A DNA stretch of 35,153 nt, from contig PLYM01000081.1 of the NCBI GenBank assembly GCA_003153375.1, forward strand, positions 1 to 35,153. The letters run 5' to 3'. Shown one piece after another: positions 4,557 to 11,879 of the stretch. The translations under genes and the position numbers were made by a program. Source of the stretch: Planctomycetaceae bacterium. GTDB lineage: Bacteria; Planctomycetota; Planctomycetia; Pirellulales; PALSA-1355. Below the pieces are notes generated by a model. It saw nothing but the letters and a program-made list of their open reading frames with translations, searched no databases and was not told the DNA's origin. Numbering within the stretch: position 1 is the first letter of the stretch; the number at the start of each line of letters is the position of its first letter.

Positions 4557-4714
4557 GAAACTCCCGGCCCTCGGCGGGGGGTAGATTATCTGTCAGAGCG
4601 GGGCAGCGGCGGGCACAGAGTCGGCGGCAGATACAGTGACGTCGGGGGCGATACGGACGGCGACGGGCATCCAATTAGCTAGCATTCAGCCAACCAATCA
4701 ATCGAGGTATGAAG

Positions 4715-6568
4715 ATGGGACGTATTTGCACGGGCGCGCTGGCGGCGGCGATCGTTTGCTGGGCCTCGCTCGGCCACGCTGCCGACACGGCGAAAACTCC
4801 GATCGGCAAGAAGGTCGAGAACTTCTCATTGCCCGACGTTCATGGCAAGTCGTGCTCGCTCGACGACTACAAAAAAGACAAGGTCGTCGTGCTGGCCTTC
4901 CTGGGCACCGAATGCCCGCTGGCCAAAAGCTATGCCCCGCGCCTGCGTGACTTGGCCGCCGAGTTCGAGAAGCAGGGCGTGGCCTTCATCGGCATCGACG
5001 CCAATCAGCAGGATTCGCTGACCGAGATCGGCGCATTCGCCCGCACCAGCGAAGTCAAGTTCCCGATGCTCAAAGATAATAACAACCAGGTCGCCGACCT
5101 CGTTGGCGCGGTGCGCACGCCCGAAGTGTTCGTGCTCGATCGCGACCGCGTGGTCCGCTATTGGGGCCGCATCGATGATCAATATGGTCTGAGCACCGGC
5201 TCGGGCTATGCCAAGCCCAAGCTTTCGGAGCGCAACCTGGCCGACGCCCTGACCGAAGTGCTGGCCGGCAAGCCGGTGAGCCATCCGGTGGTCAAGGCCG
5301 ACGGCTGCTTTATCGGCCGCGTCTCGAAGGTCGATCCGCACGGCGACGTCACGTATACCAAGCACGTGGCCCGCATCATGCAAGACCGCTGTGTCGAATG
5401 CCATCGCAAGGGCGAAATCGCGCCGTTCTCGCTAACCTCGTTCGACGAGGTGGTGGGCTGGGCCGAGACGATTCGCGAGGTGACCTCGGAAGGCCGCATG
5501 CCGCCTTGGTTCGCCAATCCCGAGCACGGCCACTTCAGCAACGACGCGCGGTTGAGCAAGGACGAAAAGCAACTGCTCAACACCTGGGTCGACAATGGCT
5601 GCCCCAAGGGGGACGCCAAGGACATGCCGCCGGCCAAGCACTATGTCGAAGGTTGGCAGATCGGCCAGCCCGACCAGGTGTTCTACATGCGTGACAAGCC
5701 GTTCACCGTGCCCGCCGAGGGCGTGGTCGACTATCAGTTCTACACCGTCGACCCGGGTTGGACTGAAGACAAGTGGATTCAGGCCACCGAGTCGCGTCCG
5801 GGCAACCGCGCGGTCGTACACCACATCATCGTGTTCGTGCAGCCCAAGGAGGGCGGCGACGTGTTCGCTCGCGGCGGCATCGGCGGCTATGCCCCCGGCA
5901 CTCCGCCGAACATCAGCCCGCCGGGCACGGCCATCAAGGTGCCGGCCAATTCGCGGCTGGTGTTTCAATTGCACTACACGCCCAACGGCACCGAGCAGGA
6001 TGACCGCAGCATGATCGGCGTGAAGTTCGCCGATCCCAAGACGGTGAAGCAGGCCGTGCGCGGCGCCTTGGTGGGCGACATGGCCTTCAAGATTCCGCCC
6101 GGCGATGCGAACTACGAAGTGAAAGCCAAGCATCTGTTTCTGAAGGACACGCTGCTCTTGAACCTGACGCCGCACATGCACCTGCGCGGCAAGGATTTCA
6201 AGTATGAGGCCGAGTATCCGGACGGCACCCGCGAGGTGCTGCTCGACGTGCCCAACTACGACTTCAACTGGCAAATTCGCTACATGTTCACCGAGCCGAA
6301 GCTGATGCCCAAGGGCACCCGCATGTATTGCACGGCCCACTTCAACAACTCGGCCGACAACCTGGCGAATCCGGATCCGAAGGATACCGTGACCTTTGGC
6401 GAGCAGACCTGGGAAGAGATGATGTTTGGGTTCTACACCTCGATCGACCCCAAGCAGGATCTCACCGCCGGCAAACTGGCCGGCAGCGAGCTCGACAAGG
6501 GTGAAATTAACGGCTTCGCGGGCGAAGGCACCGTGACCAACGCCGACGCCGCGAAGGAAAAGAATTAG
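4715..6568 (+). CDS. Exported redoxin - cytochrome c-like - copper monooxygenase-like fusion
   Basis: The product is about 617 residues with three parts. After a signal peptide (cleavage near GHA), residues 30-190 are a thioredoxin-fold redoxin domain with one candidate peroxidatic cysteine (GTECPLAKSY, C67) and no second active-site cysteine. Residues 205-300 carry C-V-E-C-H (226-230), a c-type haem site. Residues 310-600 resemble the two-domain fold of copper type II ascorbate-dependent monooxygenases such as PHM: VVHHIIVF (His369-370), LHYTPNG (His420), PHMHLRGKDF (His487, His489) and a Met near 569 match the two copper sites in order. GAGGT at 4704 lies 6 bases before the ATG at 4715 but directly abuts an ATG at 4709, so 4715 is preferred. 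Such fusions are frequent in planctomycetes; substrate and reaction are unknown. Confidence 0.85.
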   Translation: MGRICTGALAAAIVCWASLGHAADTAKTPIGKKVENFSLPDVHGKSCSLDDYKKDKVVVLAFLGTECPLAKSYAPRLRDLAAEFEKQGVAFIGIDANQQDSLTEIGAFARTSEVKFPMLKDNNNQVADLVGAVRTPEVFVLDRDRVVRYWGRIDDQYGLSTGSGYAKPKLSERNLADALTEVLAGKPVSHPVVKADGCFIGRVSKVDPHGDVTYTKHVARIMQDRCVECHRKGEIAPFSLTSFDEVVGWAETIREVTSEGRMPPWFANPEHGHFSNDARLSKDEKQLLNTWVDNGCPKGDAKDMPPAKHYVEGWQIGQPDQVFYMRDKPFTVPAEGVVDYQFYTVDPGWTEDKWIQATESRPGNRAVVHHIIVFVQPKEGGDVFARGGIGGYAPGTPPNISPPGTAIKVPANSRLVFQLHYTPNGTEQDDRSMIGVKFADPKTVKQAVRGALVGDMAFKIPPGDANYEVKAKHLFLKDTLLLNLTPHMHLRGKDFKYEAEYPDGTREVLLDVPNYDFNWQIRYMFTEPKLMPKGTRMYCTAHFNNSADNLANPDPKDTVTFGEQTWEEMMFGFYTSIDPKQDLTAGKLAGSELDKGEINGFAGEGTVTNADAAKEKN

Positions 6569-6860: not shown

Positions 6861-8609
6861 ATGCGATTCGCTCGAACGGGCTGCTCGGCTGCGCTGTTCG
6901 CGCTGTCCGTCGTCGCACTTCCCGTTGTCACGCGCGCCGCCGAAGCTCGCTTGCCGGTTGATACGAATTCGCCCGCTGGGCTGGTGCGCGCCGCGCTCGA
7001 ATCCGAATTGCTCGGCCCCTCGGAAGTGCGCGGCGAACTGCTCAAGCAGGCAATCGCCCGCGACCCCAACTTCGCCCCAGCCCGTTGGCAAAGTGGCTTC
7101 GTCCGTTGGGATGGCCAGTGGCTGACGCCCAGCGAAGTGGCTCAGCGCGCCGCCAGCGATCCGCTGTTGGCCGAGTATCGGAAGCGGCGCGACGCGATGG
7201 TGGACAAGGCCGACGATCATCGCGAGCTGGCCATCTGGTGTCACGACAGCAAGCTAATCGACCTCGAGCGCGTCCATTGGGTCAAGGTGCTCGAGTTTGA
7301 ATCAACTGATGAGCAAGCGCTGTCCGCTCTCGATTTACAGTGGCACGATGGTTACTTGCTCACACATCCGCAAATCGAACGCGCGACGGCGGCAGCTTTC
7401 GATCAGCGGAAGGCCAATAAATATTGGCAGCCTCGGGTGGCCAAATGGCGTACGGCGATCGATCGTGGAACGCCGTCGCAACGTGACAAGGCCATCGCCG
7501 AGATGGCCGCGATCTCCGATCACCACATTTTGCCGGCGTTTGAGGCCGTCTGTAGCGTTAATGGACAAGATACGTCGCCGGAGCTGCGGCAACTCGTGAT
7601 CGAAACCGTAAGTCGCATGCCCGAATTTGAGGCCACGCTGTTTCTCGTGCGGTACGCACTATTCACCGACTCACCGGAATTGCGTCAGGTTTGTGTGGCT
7701 GCCTTGAAGAAGCGGTCGCCACACATTTATGTGCCGCTTCTGCTTGCGGTTGTCCCAAAACAAATTGAGTCGCGGCATGCCTGGACGTACCTGGTCGACG
7801 GGACCTTTGTCCGAGATCACCAGTTTCTCCTTAAGGATGCCTATGGGTATCGTTTTTTCCGTCTTATCGACGAAGACGTGCCGATTAACCCTCGAGCGCG
7901 CCTAAGCGCAACCTGGATTGGTCTTCGACCCGCGGTGGCTCAGCAAGAAACCGCGGCGTTCACCAGTGAACTGGAGGACCGGCGCACCGAGCTGACCAGA
8001 CGACTGGGTGTGATTTGTTCTCAATTGGAGTTCCTGAAGAAGTCTCCCGAAGGCGATTGGCAAGAGGCCTGGGAACGTTACTGCGAGAGTTATAGCCCGC
8101 CGTCCGCGAGTCTTATCCGGTACAGCATTTCGCACCAAACGCGAAAAACTTTTTCGTGTTTTCCAGCCGGAACCCCCATTGGCACGATCGCCGGCCTCAG
8201 GCCGATTGAACGCCTCCGACCGGGAGATTTCGTCCTCGCGCAGAGCCCGCAATCGGGCGAGTTGGCCTACAAGCCCGTGCAGCGAGTCACGCTGCGGCCC
8301 GCGAGCCAACAGATCAGAATTCGCACCGGCGGCGAGACCTTGTCGGCCACGCGAGGGCATCTGTTTTGGTTGAACGACAAAGGCTGGGCCTTGGCCAAGC
8401 AATTAAAGGTTGGCGACCTGCTGCACACACCGAATGGATCGGTCGTGATCGACGAGCTGGCGGAGGCGCCCGCCCGCGAGGCCTATAACCTGGTCGTCGG
8501 CGACTTCAATTCTTACTTCGTCGGCGATCGGCAGTTGTTGGTCCACGATAATTCGCCCTTATTGGAGAGCAACGTGCGCGTGCCGGGATTGGTGGCGGAG
8601 AATCATTGA
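6861..8609 (+). CDS. Exported protein with C-terminal Hint (hedgehog/intein-type) domain, copy 1
   Basis: The 582-residue product has a signal peptide (residues 1-27), a helical region of TPR/HEAT-like character (30-290), a linker region, and a Hint domain from Cys433 (SCFPAGTPI) to about 564. Hint landmarks are Cys433 in the position of the self-splicing nucleophile, RPGDFVLAQ, the T-x-x-H motif Thr497-His500 (ATRGHLFW), and LLVHDNS (His562-Asp563-Asn564). Such domains can shift an N-S acyl bond and cleave the chain. Only 18 residues follow, ending VPGLVAENH, so no toxin is attached as in polymorphic toxins. GGAGG lies 9 bases before the ATG at 6861; a longer frame from 6711 lacks this and would bury the signal peptide. 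The next gene is a paralogue. Self-processing is inference from motifs. Confidence 0.8.
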   Translation: MRFARTGCSAALFALSVVALPVVTRAAEARLPVDTNSPAGLVRAALESELLGPSEVRGELLKQAIARDPNFAPARWQSGFVRWDGQWLTPSEVAQRAASDPLLAEYRKRRDAMVDKADDHRELAIWCHDSKLIDLERVHWVKVLEFESTDEQALSALDLQWHDGYLLTHPQIERATAAAFDQRKANKYWQPRVAKWRTAIDRGTPSQRDKAIAEMAAISDHHILPAFEAVCSVNGQDTSPELRQLVIETVSRMPEFEATLFLVRYALFTDSPELRQVCVAALKKRSPHIYVPLLLAVVPKQIESRHAWTYLVDGTFVRDHQFLLKDAYGYRFFRLIDEDVPINPRARLSATWIGLRPAVAQQETAAFTSELEDRRTELTRRLGVICSQLEFLKKSPEGDWQEAWERYCESYSPPSASLIRYSISHQTRKTFSCFPAGTPIGTIAGLRPIERLRPGDFVLAQSPQSGELAYKPVQRVTLRPASQQIRIRTGGETLSATRGHLFWLNDKGWALAKQLKVGDLLHTPNGSVVIDELAEAPAREAYNLVVGDFNSYFVGDRQLLVHDNSPLLESNVRVPGLVAENH

Positions 8610-8707
8610 TCGTCGAGGCTTCGATCGGCCGAACGCGAACGCGAGGAAACCGGGCGACGCCATCAGGGAACAAAAAAACAGGCAACGTAATTTTGGAGAT
8701 CCATCTC

Positions 8708-10558
8708 ATGCGACGCCATCGAATTGCAACTGTGGCCGCGCTCGTCGTGCTGGGTGGCATGATGCCCGCTGCTGTCGAGGCCGCCGAAGCACGCTTGCCG
8801 GTCGACAACGGCTCGCCCGCGGCCCTGGTGCGCGCGGCGCTCGAGTCGGAATTGGGCGGTCCCTCGGAAGTGCGCAGCGAGCTGCTCAAACAGGCGTTGG
8901 CCCGCGACCCCGATTATGCTCCGGCCCGCTGGCAAAGTGGCTTCGTCCGTTGGGACGGCAAGTGGCTCTCGCCCAGCGAAGTGGCGAGTCGCACGGCGCG
9001 TGATCCGCTGCTGGCGGAATATCGCAAGCGTCGCGACGCGATGGTGGACAAGGCCGACGACCATCGCGAGCTGGCCGCCTGGTGCCACAAGAACAAGCTT
9101 CTCGAGCAAGCGCGCCTGCACTGGCTGAAGGTGCTCGAATTCGAGCCGGCCGATGAACAAGCCCTGTCGGGCCTGGGGTTGCAGTGGTACGACGGTCGCT
9201 TGCTCACGGCCGCGCAGATCGAGCAGGGAAAAAAGGCGGCCATCGAACAGCGACGTGCCCACAAAGCCTGGCAGGCCCGGGCGACCAAATGGCGGGGAGC
9301 CATCGACCATGGCCCCGCGGGTCAGCGCGAGGCGGCGCTCGCCGAACTCAAAAAGGTTTCCGACGTCTCGGCGTTGCCGGCCTTGGAAGCCGCCTTCGGC
9401 ATCGGCGGCACGACGCAAAAAGCGATGGAGTTGAACCATCTGTTGATGCAAACGGTCAGCCGCATTCCAGGAGCCGAGTCGACGCGCGTCCTGCTGCGCC
9501 GCGCGCTAACGGCCGATTCCGAAGACGTTCGCGCCGCGGCCGCCGACGAGTTGAAAAAGCGACCGATGCACGCCTACGTGCCGCAATTGATCGCGGCCCT
9601 GCCGGGCACGCTGTCGACCCGGTTTCAAATCTCGATTCTGCCCAACGGCGCGTTGGTCTACGAGCACGAAGTGCTCATCGAGGGGCGCTCGGCGAATATC
9701 TCGCTCCGCTACGAATCGGCGGTAAATGCCGGCGATCCCTTGACCCTGATGGCGAGTTTGTCTGGCGATGCGGCCAGCGACGTGCGAACCGCCGCGCGCA
9801 TCGAATCGAGCGCCCGCGCGACCCAATCGCAGCTCGACGCATGGCGCGAGCGGGTTCAATGGGTGCTCGTGCGAACGACGGGGTTCGCCAATATCAGCGA
9901 TCCGGGTTTGTGGGAAAAACAATATAACGATTACAACGGCTGGCAAACGTCGCCGAAATACAAGCCGACCCTGTATCAAACTGCGTCCAATCAGCGAGGC
10001 TATGCGACTTCGCCGACCGACACGTATTTGAGCAGCGCCCCAAAGCCCGTCCCTATTTCTCCTTCTCTTCGCGCTTTTCCGTTGACCGCCTTTCCGCACA
10101 GCTCTTGCTTTGCCGCCGGCACGCCGATTCTCACCCAGTTCGGACCGCAGGCGATCGAAACGATCAAAGTGGGGGATCTCGTTTTGGCGCAGGATGGCGA
10201 AACCGGCGAACTGGCCTACAAGCCCGTTCAGGCCACGACCCTGTTGCCAGCGATTCCATTGTTGAAGATCACGAGCGGGTCCGACTCACTGGTAACAACG
10301 CCTGGACATCCCTTTTGGGTGAATGGCGCCGGCTGGCGAACCGCGAAGCAATTGACAACCGGTGAGCGTTTGCACGGTCTGAACGGCGCTATCGCGATCG
10401 ACCAGATCGAGCCGGTCAGGCCCTCGGAGGTCTACAATCTCGTCGTCGATGGTTACCACGACTACTTCGCCGGGTCGGCGCGTTTGCTGGCGCACGACTA
10501 TTCGTCGCCGTTGGAGAATACCGCCAGCGTGCCAGGACTCGTGGCTGACGGTCGGTGA
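8708..10558 (+). CDS. Exported protein with C-terminal Hint domain, copy 2
   Basis: This 616-residue paralogue starts 98 bases after the first copy's stop, with GGAG before the ATG at 8708 and a signal peptide ending near residue 26. Residues 28-170 match copy 1 almost position for position (LPVD, ALESELGGPSEVR, ARWQSGFVRWDG, YRKRRDAMVDKADDHREL). Residues 200-295 look like HEAT-type helical pairs (ADELKKRPMHAYVPQLIAAL). Residues 300-460 diverge and include a Tyr/Ser/Pro-rich linker. The Hint domain runs from Cys467 (SCFAAGTPI) through IKVGDLVLAQ and the T-x-x-H motif Thr531-His534 (TTPGHPFW) to LLAHDYS (His596-Asp597-Tyr598). The usual final Asn is absent, replaced by Asp-Tyr. The tail SVPGLVADGR echoes copy 1. 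Location should be periplasm or surface. Confidence 0.8.
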   Translation: MRRHRIATVAALVVLGGMMPAAVEAAEARLPVDNGSPAALVRAALESELGGPSEVRSELLKQALARDPDYAPARWQSGFVRWDGKWLSPSEVASRTARDPLLAEYRKRRDAMVDKADDHRELAAWCHKNKLLEQARLHWLKVLEFEPADEQALSGLGLQWYDGRLLTAAQIEQGKKAAIEQRRAHKAWQARATKWRGAIDHGPAGQREAALAELKKVSDVSALPALEAAFGIGGTTQKAMELNHLLMQTVSRIPGAESTRVLLRRALTADSEDVRAAAADELKKRPMHAYVPQLIAALPGTLSTRFQISILPNGALVYEHEVLIEGRSANISLRYESAVNAGDPLTLMASLSGDAASDVRTAARIESSARATQSQLDAWRERVQWVLVRTTGFANISDPGLWEKQYNDYNGWQTSPKYKPTLYQTASNQRGYATSPTDTYLSSAPKPVPISPSLRAFPLTAFPHSSCFAAGTPILTQFGPQAIETIKVGDLVLAQDGETGELAYKPVQATTLLPAIPLLKITSGSDSLVTTPGHPFWVNGAGWRTAKQLTTGERLHGLNGAIAIDQIEPVRPSEVYNLVVDGYHDYFAGSARLLAHDYSSPLENTASVPGLVADGR

Positions 10559-10589: not shown

Positions 10590-11879
10590 GTGAAGAGCGG
10601 GAAGCGGACATTCCGAACGACCCTGTGGCTGGCGGGCGGCTGCGCGCTCGCCGTGTGGACCGAGCCGGTGTTGGCTGGCGGTCTGGACTTGCCAACCGGG
10701 ATTTCGCGACTCCTCGATCCGATATCCGAGGAGGCAAAATCCTTCGAGTCGTCGGCACCCCAACAATACGAGCAACTGAAACAGCGTTTTCCCAACGATC
10801 GACGTCTTGACTACGCGTATTCCCTGGCGCTGATCGGCCAGCGCAAATACCGCGAAGCTCTTCCGTTGGTTTCACGCTATCTGGAGGGGGGTCGCGGCGA
10901 GCCGCACGCTTATTGCACGAAGATTTGGGTGCTGTTGCAGGACCGCCGCTACCAGGACGCCTTGAATGAAGCGGTCACGCTCAGCAGCCGATTTCCGCAA
11001 GGCGCACCGTCGCCCGAAAGCCGCTATTACGAAGCCGCGGAATTCTTAGGCACTGTCTTTGCTTTTCTCGAGTTGGCGCGCCCCGGTGCCATCGCTCCCG
11101 CGCGACGACTGGAGTATAAGAACCGCGTGCTGGCCCGCCTGGGCAAAGCTTATAGGCCGGCTTTCGACCAGGCCCGTAGCGCCGTCGTGGGTCAGCTTGC
11201 CGAGATGCAAGATAAGAATGAATCGATTCAGCGCGGGCTTGCCGCCAAGAGCGAAGAGCGTAAAGGCCGGGCGCAGGCCAGTCTGGACGCCGACCGCCAA
11301 CGGCTTCTGGACGCCGAGGAAACCCAGCAAGCGAGCACGTCTCAGTTGCTCGACGCGCAGCGATCATTGCAGCAGACTCAGCAAGAGCTGGTCACGCTGA
11401 ATCACGACCGCGCACAGCTCGGAGCCAAAATCGCCATGCTCCAAGCACAAATTTCAATGATCCTGACTCCGGTGACATACGACCAGCGCACGGACCCCAC
11501 CTTACCTACCATTCAAGTCACGGCGCCGCCACCGGCGGGCGACACCCGCACGCTGCGGGCCACGGCCTTGGCGATGACCATGGCCGGTCTGAGCAGGCAG
11601 GCGCTCGGAATGGACCGTAAGATCCTTGCCTATCAGGCTCGCATCGCGGAGCTAGCCGGTAAGGGAGAGCAGGAACTGGATTCGCTCGCCGAGAGCGAAG
11701 CGGAGTTGGAATCGACGCAACGCCGCGCGAAGAAGGCCGAATATCAACTTAATCGCGGCAACAAGCCCACGGCCGTCCGATCCGGCGTGCTCTCGGAAAA
11801 AATGTCCACCTTCTCCACCTACTCGCCGTTTCCTTACTCGCAGGAGCGGAAACGGGTCTTGAGCTGGTTCGCGAAGTGA
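10590..11879 (+). CDS. Exported TPR and coiled-coil protein
   Basis: The 429-residue product is not a known family to me. The GTG at 10590 is chosen because GGGGAGA lies about 11 bases upstream and a signal peptide follows directly (TTLWLAGGCALAVWTEPVLA). An open frame from 10449 would instead overlap the preceding gene's end. Residues 45-135 have TPR-like helix pairs (DYAYSLALIGQRKYREALPL, KIWVLLQDRRYQDALNEAV). Residues 195-305 are a long Gln/Glu/Arg-rich coiled coil (LDADRQRLLDAEETQQASTS), then a Pro/Thr break and a second coiled coil at about 365-395. It lies 31 bases after the second Hint gene, so co-transcription is likely. It could be a scaffold or envelope-stress protein; function unknown. 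Confidence 0.7.
   Translation: MKSGKRTFRTTLWLAGGCALAVWTEPVLAGGLDLPTGISRLLDPISEEAKSFESSAPQQYEQLKQRFPNDRRLDYAYSLALIGQRKYREALPLVSRYLEGGRGEPHAYCTKIWVLLQDRRYQDALNEAVTLSSRFPQGAPSPESRYYEAAEFLGTVFAFLELARPGAIAPARRLEYKNRVLARLGKAYRPAFDQARSAVVGQLAEMQDKNESIQRGLAAKSEERKGRAQASLDADRQRLLDAEETQQASTSQLLDAQRSLQQTQQELVTLNHDRAQLGAKIAMLQAQISMILTPVTYDQRTDPTLPTIQVTAPPPAGDTRTLRATALAMTMAGLSRQALGMDRKILAYQARIAELAGKGEQELDSLAESEAELESTQRRAKKAEYQLNRGNKPTAVRSGVLSEKMSTFSTYSPFPYSQERKRVLSWFAK

Follow-up and report, generated by a model that had tools for sequence, protein, structure and literature searches.

Organization of the tandem Hint genes

The window, i.e., the whole 35,153-nucleotide stretch analyzed here, contains two adjacent genes that each encode an exported protein ending in a Hint domain; both genes, their domains, and the gene downstream of them lie on the forward strand. 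Gene 1 (6861–8609) encodes P0001 (582 residues) and gene 2 (8708–10558) encodes P0003 (616 residues). Both are open reading frames with a signal-peptide-like N-terminus, and they match the Pfam family PT-HINT with E-values of 6.8e-17 and 2.5e-18, respectively. The two genes are separated by 98 bases, and their products are 46% identical along their length; in a tree of 42 relatives, the two group as sisters (ultrafast bootstrap 93, SH-aLRT 98). An earlier note on this DNA had described tandem exported paralogues with signal peptides, helical-repeat bodies, and C-terminal Hint domains carrying the catalytic Cys and a T-x-x-H motif, and the present analysis bears out each of these elements. A third gene (10590–11879), 31 bases downstream of gene 2, encodes a TPR/coiled-coil-like exported protein of 429 residues. 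Elsewhere in the window, the protein encoded at 4709–6568 contains an AhpC/TSA redoxin domain and, behind it, a long additional region whose haem-binding and cytochrome-like matches are weak.

In both Hint proteins, a signal-peptide-like N-terminus leads into a helical-repeat body, which a linker joins to the Hint domain, and a tail of 19 residues ends the chain. The body of P0003 spans approximately residues 36–429 (8813–9994). The Hint domain of P0001, delimited by the blocks of the family alignment, runs from Cys433 to His562-Asp563 (8157–8549), with a Pfam match over residues 441–557, and its block B reads Thr-Arg-Gly-His (residues 497–500; 8349–8360). In P0003, the domain extends from Cys467 to His596-Asp597 (10106–10498), and block B is Thr-Pro-Gly-His (residues 531–534; 10298–10309). 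The terminal Hint residue is Asp in both proteins, not Asn, a feature that the earlier note had overlooked. The tails are NSPLLESNVRVPGLVAENH in P0001 (8550–8606) and YSSPLENTASVPGLVADGR in P0003 (10499–10555). The previous observation that few residues follow the Hint domain holds insofar as there is no cargo and exactly 19 residues are present in each protein, but the tail is conserved and motif-bearing rather than meaningless.

Predicted structure of the Hint domain

The scores of P0001 and P0003 against PT-HINT (PF07591), 62.4 and 67.1 bits, far exceed the Pfam gathering cut-off of 27.7, and the matches are therefore not due to chance. Among proteins of solved structure, the nearest in sequence is the bacterial intein-like (BIL) domain 2LWY (E 2.8e-19), which we take to be a type A BIL. 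Structure prediction, named beforehand as the refuting test, gave a Hint fold. An AF2 model of the Hint part, built from five sequences (the window pair and three from other loci), has a horseshoe β-fold with core pLDDT values of ~90–97, and it superimposes on 2LWY with a Z-score of 22.2 and a deviation of 1.3 Å over 134 residues at 37% identity. The second-best structural match is BIL2 of Tetrahymena BUBL1 (Z 21.0), followed by many inteins at Z ~20 and the hedgehog domain 1AT0 at Z 18.9. The Hint fold in the window proteins is thus secure. Residues 145–160 of the model, which make up nearly the whole tail, have pLDDT values below 50, and the tail of P0003 is probably disordered for nearly all its length. 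The full-length model, based on the two window sequences only, was poor and left the Hint domain unfolded; in a fold search with this model, the body had no significant relative.

The body and its Hint-less relatives

The body shows sub-threshold Pfam matches of the TPR/HEAT type and is predicted to be mostly helical, with pLDDT values of ~75–88 over residues 180–300. In an hhalign comparison, 24 homologues without a Hint domain aligned with it over family profile positions 47–433 (E 3.5e-38). These homologues are ~400 residues long, occur in most genomes of the order, and mostly have signal-peptide-like starts, and their alignment ends where the linker to the Hint domain begins. Since the body aligns with whole exported proteins that have no Hint domain, the latter is an add-on behind a complete protein, and release at the Cys would therefore yield a normal stand-alone product. 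Many of the Hint-less homologues (L051:2079–3332, L053:1991–3292, and L131–L149) end in a conserved Arg-Arg-Asp stretch.

Extent of the family

Within the window's order, 57 genomes, including that of the window, were searched, and reading of the loci yielded 42 full-length relatives, often in tandem; their tree points to repeated lineage-specific duplication. A signal-peptide-like stretch lies behind the start codon in all 42, as judged by a simple hydrophobicity score. A Hint-profile scan covering 297 genomes of the class found strong matches in families f21 and f22 as well (up to nine per genome in f22), and nearly all loci read there encode the same body and Hint domain as the window proteins. 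The profile recovered more candidates than an earlier phylum scan, which scored few per genome and therefore undercounted the family. The same architecture, for which the earlier note had proposed a search, is thus found in 96 distinct homologues across the window's order and the class, often in multiple copies; this set comprises the 42 relatives from the order, six more from the class, and the loci read from the profile scan.

In family f118 of the class, most Hint domains end in His-Asn and precede a cargo, whereas one protein, L210, has the body, the Hint domain, and His-Asp. One f118 genome (G454) contains 28 Hint matches, many of them within 60 kb of contig 1 (~259–318 kb); the few that were read are His-Asn domains with cargo. 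A single-protein scan of genome contigs and a scan of viral contigs each returned one distant Hint domain only. Plasmid matches cover the Hint part only and belong mostly to proteins annotated as toxin-type, and NCBIfam contains no model for the window's Hint proteins. A further tandem copy in genome G046 (L063:14378–16224) is divided into two overlapping frames inside the Hint domain, which reflects either a sequencing error or a frameshift that made the copy a pseudogene.

Conservation of the active site and of the tail

The N-side catalytic residues are nearly invariant among the 96 members. Cys1 is kept in 95 and is Ser in one, block-B His is present in 94, block-B Thr or Ser in 95, and block-F Asn in 95. 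The Hint domain averages 48% pairwise identity, whereas the body reaches 33%, the middle part 23%, and the linker 19%; as the best-conserved region of the protein, the Hint domain is not decaying. One f22 protein (L127:5809–7800), in which Cys1 is aligned with Ser and block-B His is also missing while His-Asp is kept, is probably a natural inactive variant and illustrates how a decayed member would appear.

The C-side differs markedly from that of other Hint domains. The last Hint residue is Asp in 94 of the 96 members and Gly in two, and it is never the Asn on which inteins, type A BIL domains, and toxin Hint domains rely; the penultimate His is kept in 93, and one member ends in Gly-Asp. Block-F His, thought to aid C-side cleavage in inteins, is variable (33/96), in contrast to the cargo-bearing Hint domains compared, in which His is found mostly. 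The +1 residue is Asn or hydrophobic (Ile, Val, etc.) in nearly all members and Thr once, and never Cys or Ser among those counted. For comparison, 60 other Hint matches were read, drawn from the same genomes or from related ones. Of these, 59 terminate in His-Asn and a single one in His-Asp, and at least 80 residues follow in all but three of the 59. The pattern behind these counts overlooks some unusual domains, and its hits on unrelated stretches were set aside by eye. A Fisher test of terminal Asn between the family and the cargo-bearing Hint domains gives p ~1e-42, a value that is descriptive only because related sequences are not independent. The only cargo-bearing comparison domain that ends in His-Asp (L101:1–1878) is followed by 124 residues. 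The Asn-to-Asp switch provides a simple, testable sequence mark separating two uses of the Hint domain.

The tail comprises 14–46 residues in the 96 members. In the window's order and f21, it carries Pro-Gly at a nearly fixed distance (61/65), and in f22, Pro-Phe-Asp or Ala-Phe-Asp (28/31). Both members ending in His-Gly retain the Pro-Gly tail, which argues that its purpose is not removal by cleavage. The tail is thus maintained although Asn cyclization cannot remove it, and such a short conserved element is probably involved in recognition or control.

These patterns bear on two alternative explanations. The Hint domain could be folded and have lost catalysis, providing an exported scaffold protein with a rigid terminal module for binding or anchoring. 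This would account for the C-side residue changed throughout, the variable block-F His, the existence of a protein without Cys1 and block-B His, and a tail conserved in the manner of a binding motif. However, a pure scaffold role leaves unexplained why Cys1 and block-B His persist across diverged groups and why the Hint domain is the best-conserved region, and this explanation is considered rather unlikely. Alternatively, the C-side could be active, with the terminal Asp cyclizing or hydrolyzing to free the tail as a peptide of 14–46 residues. Its probability is low, though it keeps some weight because inteins ending in Asp can still process the C-side, according to a passage in the review PMC4031507 that cites Amitai 2004; the retained penultimate His and the conserved Pro-Gly or Pro-Phe-Asp motif fit it as well. 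Yet the two His-Gly members and the Gly-Asp member retain the tail motif, and the variability of block-F His also speaks against it, so that an active C-side is distinctly unlikely.

Neighboring genes

A family-level comparison of 33 loci revealed no neighbor family common to most of them. Genes of the 10590–11879 type directly adjoin a Hint gene, on either side, in six of the 33 loci, and homologues occur in 16 of the 57 genomes; this TPR/coiled-coil protein is thus rejected as an obligatory partner, but it could act as one in certain lineages. In genome G000 (contig 8, 2280–2873), a homologue lies inside an 877-residue frame, so the TPR/coiled-coil part may additionally exist as a section of a longer protein. 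Sulfatase genes were likewise rejected as a shared neighbor, since their cluster joins only seven of the 33 loci, at varying places.

That the family represents a polymorphic toxin minus its toxin, or that its tail is a very short toxin, is highly improbable: the domain does belong to the PT-HINT family, is C-terminal in exported proteins, and has cargo-bearing counterparts in the same genomes, yet all 96 members are cargo-less and without the Asn, their tails are uniform rather than polymorphic, and the family-level comparison of neighbors shows no candidate immunity gene shared by most loci. Splicing was rejected for lack of both a +1 nucleophile and a C-extein.

Proposed mechanism

The preferred reading, held to be probable though by no means assured, is that the Hint domain has kept only its N-terminal chemistry: the body would be released or covalently attached, C-terminal cleavage would be disabled, and the tail would be retained. 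The nearly fixed N-side catalytic residues and the absence of the C-side Asn from all 96 members provide comparative support for self-processing, which is the best reading of these sequences. There are precedents for such partial chemistry. Hedgehog proteins use the acyl shift only, with cholesterol as the nucleophile (PMC7664689; PMC7242414), and the Hint domain of BIL2 conjugates its N-flank to lysine (PMC8616854).

The cleavage, the resolving nucleophile, and the role of the tail are parts of the scheme that we infer. After export and folding, Cys433 or Cys467 would attack the preceding peptide bond, and an N–S acyl shift, aided by block-B Thr and His, would produce a thioester to the body. 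Either hydrolysis or attack by the amine or hydroxyl group of a surface partner could then resolve this thioester, whereby the body (~400–440 residues) would be released or covalently attached. C-terminal cleavage through Asn cyclization should not occur, given that Asp (rarely Gly) stands in place of the terminal Asn and that the +1 position has no conserved nucleophile; the tail would therefore remain on the Hint domain. Three points count against N-side chemistry alone. No partner or nucleophile common to all members was found. The residue before Cys1 varies (Ser in 29 of 42), unlike that of hedgehog, which is a fixed Gly. In addition, some C-side chemistry may persist, since Asp-ending inteins can process and the penultimate His is kept.

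A more specific form of N-side chemistry is the conjugation of planctomycete surface proteins, in which the body thioester would pass to an amine or hydroxyl of a surface partner under direction of the tail, with the fixed Asp as the activating base. In its entirety, this form is considered rather improbable, and the action of Asp as a base for the nucleophile is speculation. If true, bacteria would possess a counterpart to the cholesterolysis of hedgehog or the lysine conjugation of BUBL, and placing the body onto a surface molecule would constitute a new bacterial way of building the envelope. If only hydrolysis takes place, the Hint domain would serve as a compact release device.

Comparison with known Hint systems

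Bacterial Hint domains are usually viewed as inteins or toxin-release devices. The window proteins belong to the Hint superfamily, as they combine the horseshoe β-fold with an N-terminal Cys and the block-B TxxH motif. Members of their family are not inteins, for there is no C-extein domain and the +1 position is occupied by Asn, Ile, Val, etc., with a single Thr. Type A BIL domains are closest by both structure and sequence, with the same fold and active-site blocks and without a +1 nucleophile. However, type A domains terminate in His-Asn and are able to cleave or splice on the C-side (PMC4031507), whereas the Hint domains of the present family terminate in His-Asp or His-Gly without a following domain, and none of the 96 has a terminal Asn. 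With type B BIL domains, the family would be expected to share cleavage uncoupled from splicing. Type B domains are without similarity to intein block G (PMC4031507), yet most members of the present family keep a recognizable block G, ending in His-Asp. The PT-HINT domains of polymorphic toxins belong to the same Pfam family and are also C-terminal in exported proteins; they are thought to free a C-terminal toxin (PMC3482391), whereas the present family has neither the Asn required for that cut nor a toxin domain in the 14–46 residues that follow.

Bacterial proteins described by Burglin 2008 have a C-terminal Hint domain in all cases and a signal peptide in some, but the members listed come from other bacterial groups, and their domain is described as quite divergent from those of inteins, Hog, and BIL (PMC2362128). 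The present family is close to BIL and PT-HINT and, judged from that description, appears distinct from the group. Exported Hint proteins that carry no cargo are therefore not a new concept in general. The literature searched, mainly open-access articles without the original BIL papers, contains no description of the family, and a cargo-less exported Hint family with the Asp and the tail appears to be new.

BIL2 of BUBL1 is a near structural match and conjugates its N-flank to lysine (PMC8616854). It sits between two ubiquitin-like domains, unlike the Hint domain of the window's family, and it ends in Asn, judged from the name of the N143A mutant of the crystal construct. Hedgehog/Hog proteins likewise combine an exported N-terminal part with a Hint domain, and the use of the initial acyl shift only is what would be expected in both cases. 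Hedgehog has a sterol recognition region with a helix-loop-helix (PMC7242414), whereas the window proteins have only a 19-residue tail, modeled mostly at low confidence and without a helix. Collectively, these comparisons describe a widespread, repeatedly duplicated bacterial family whose Hint domain looks specialized for the protein in front of it, like that of animal hedgehog.
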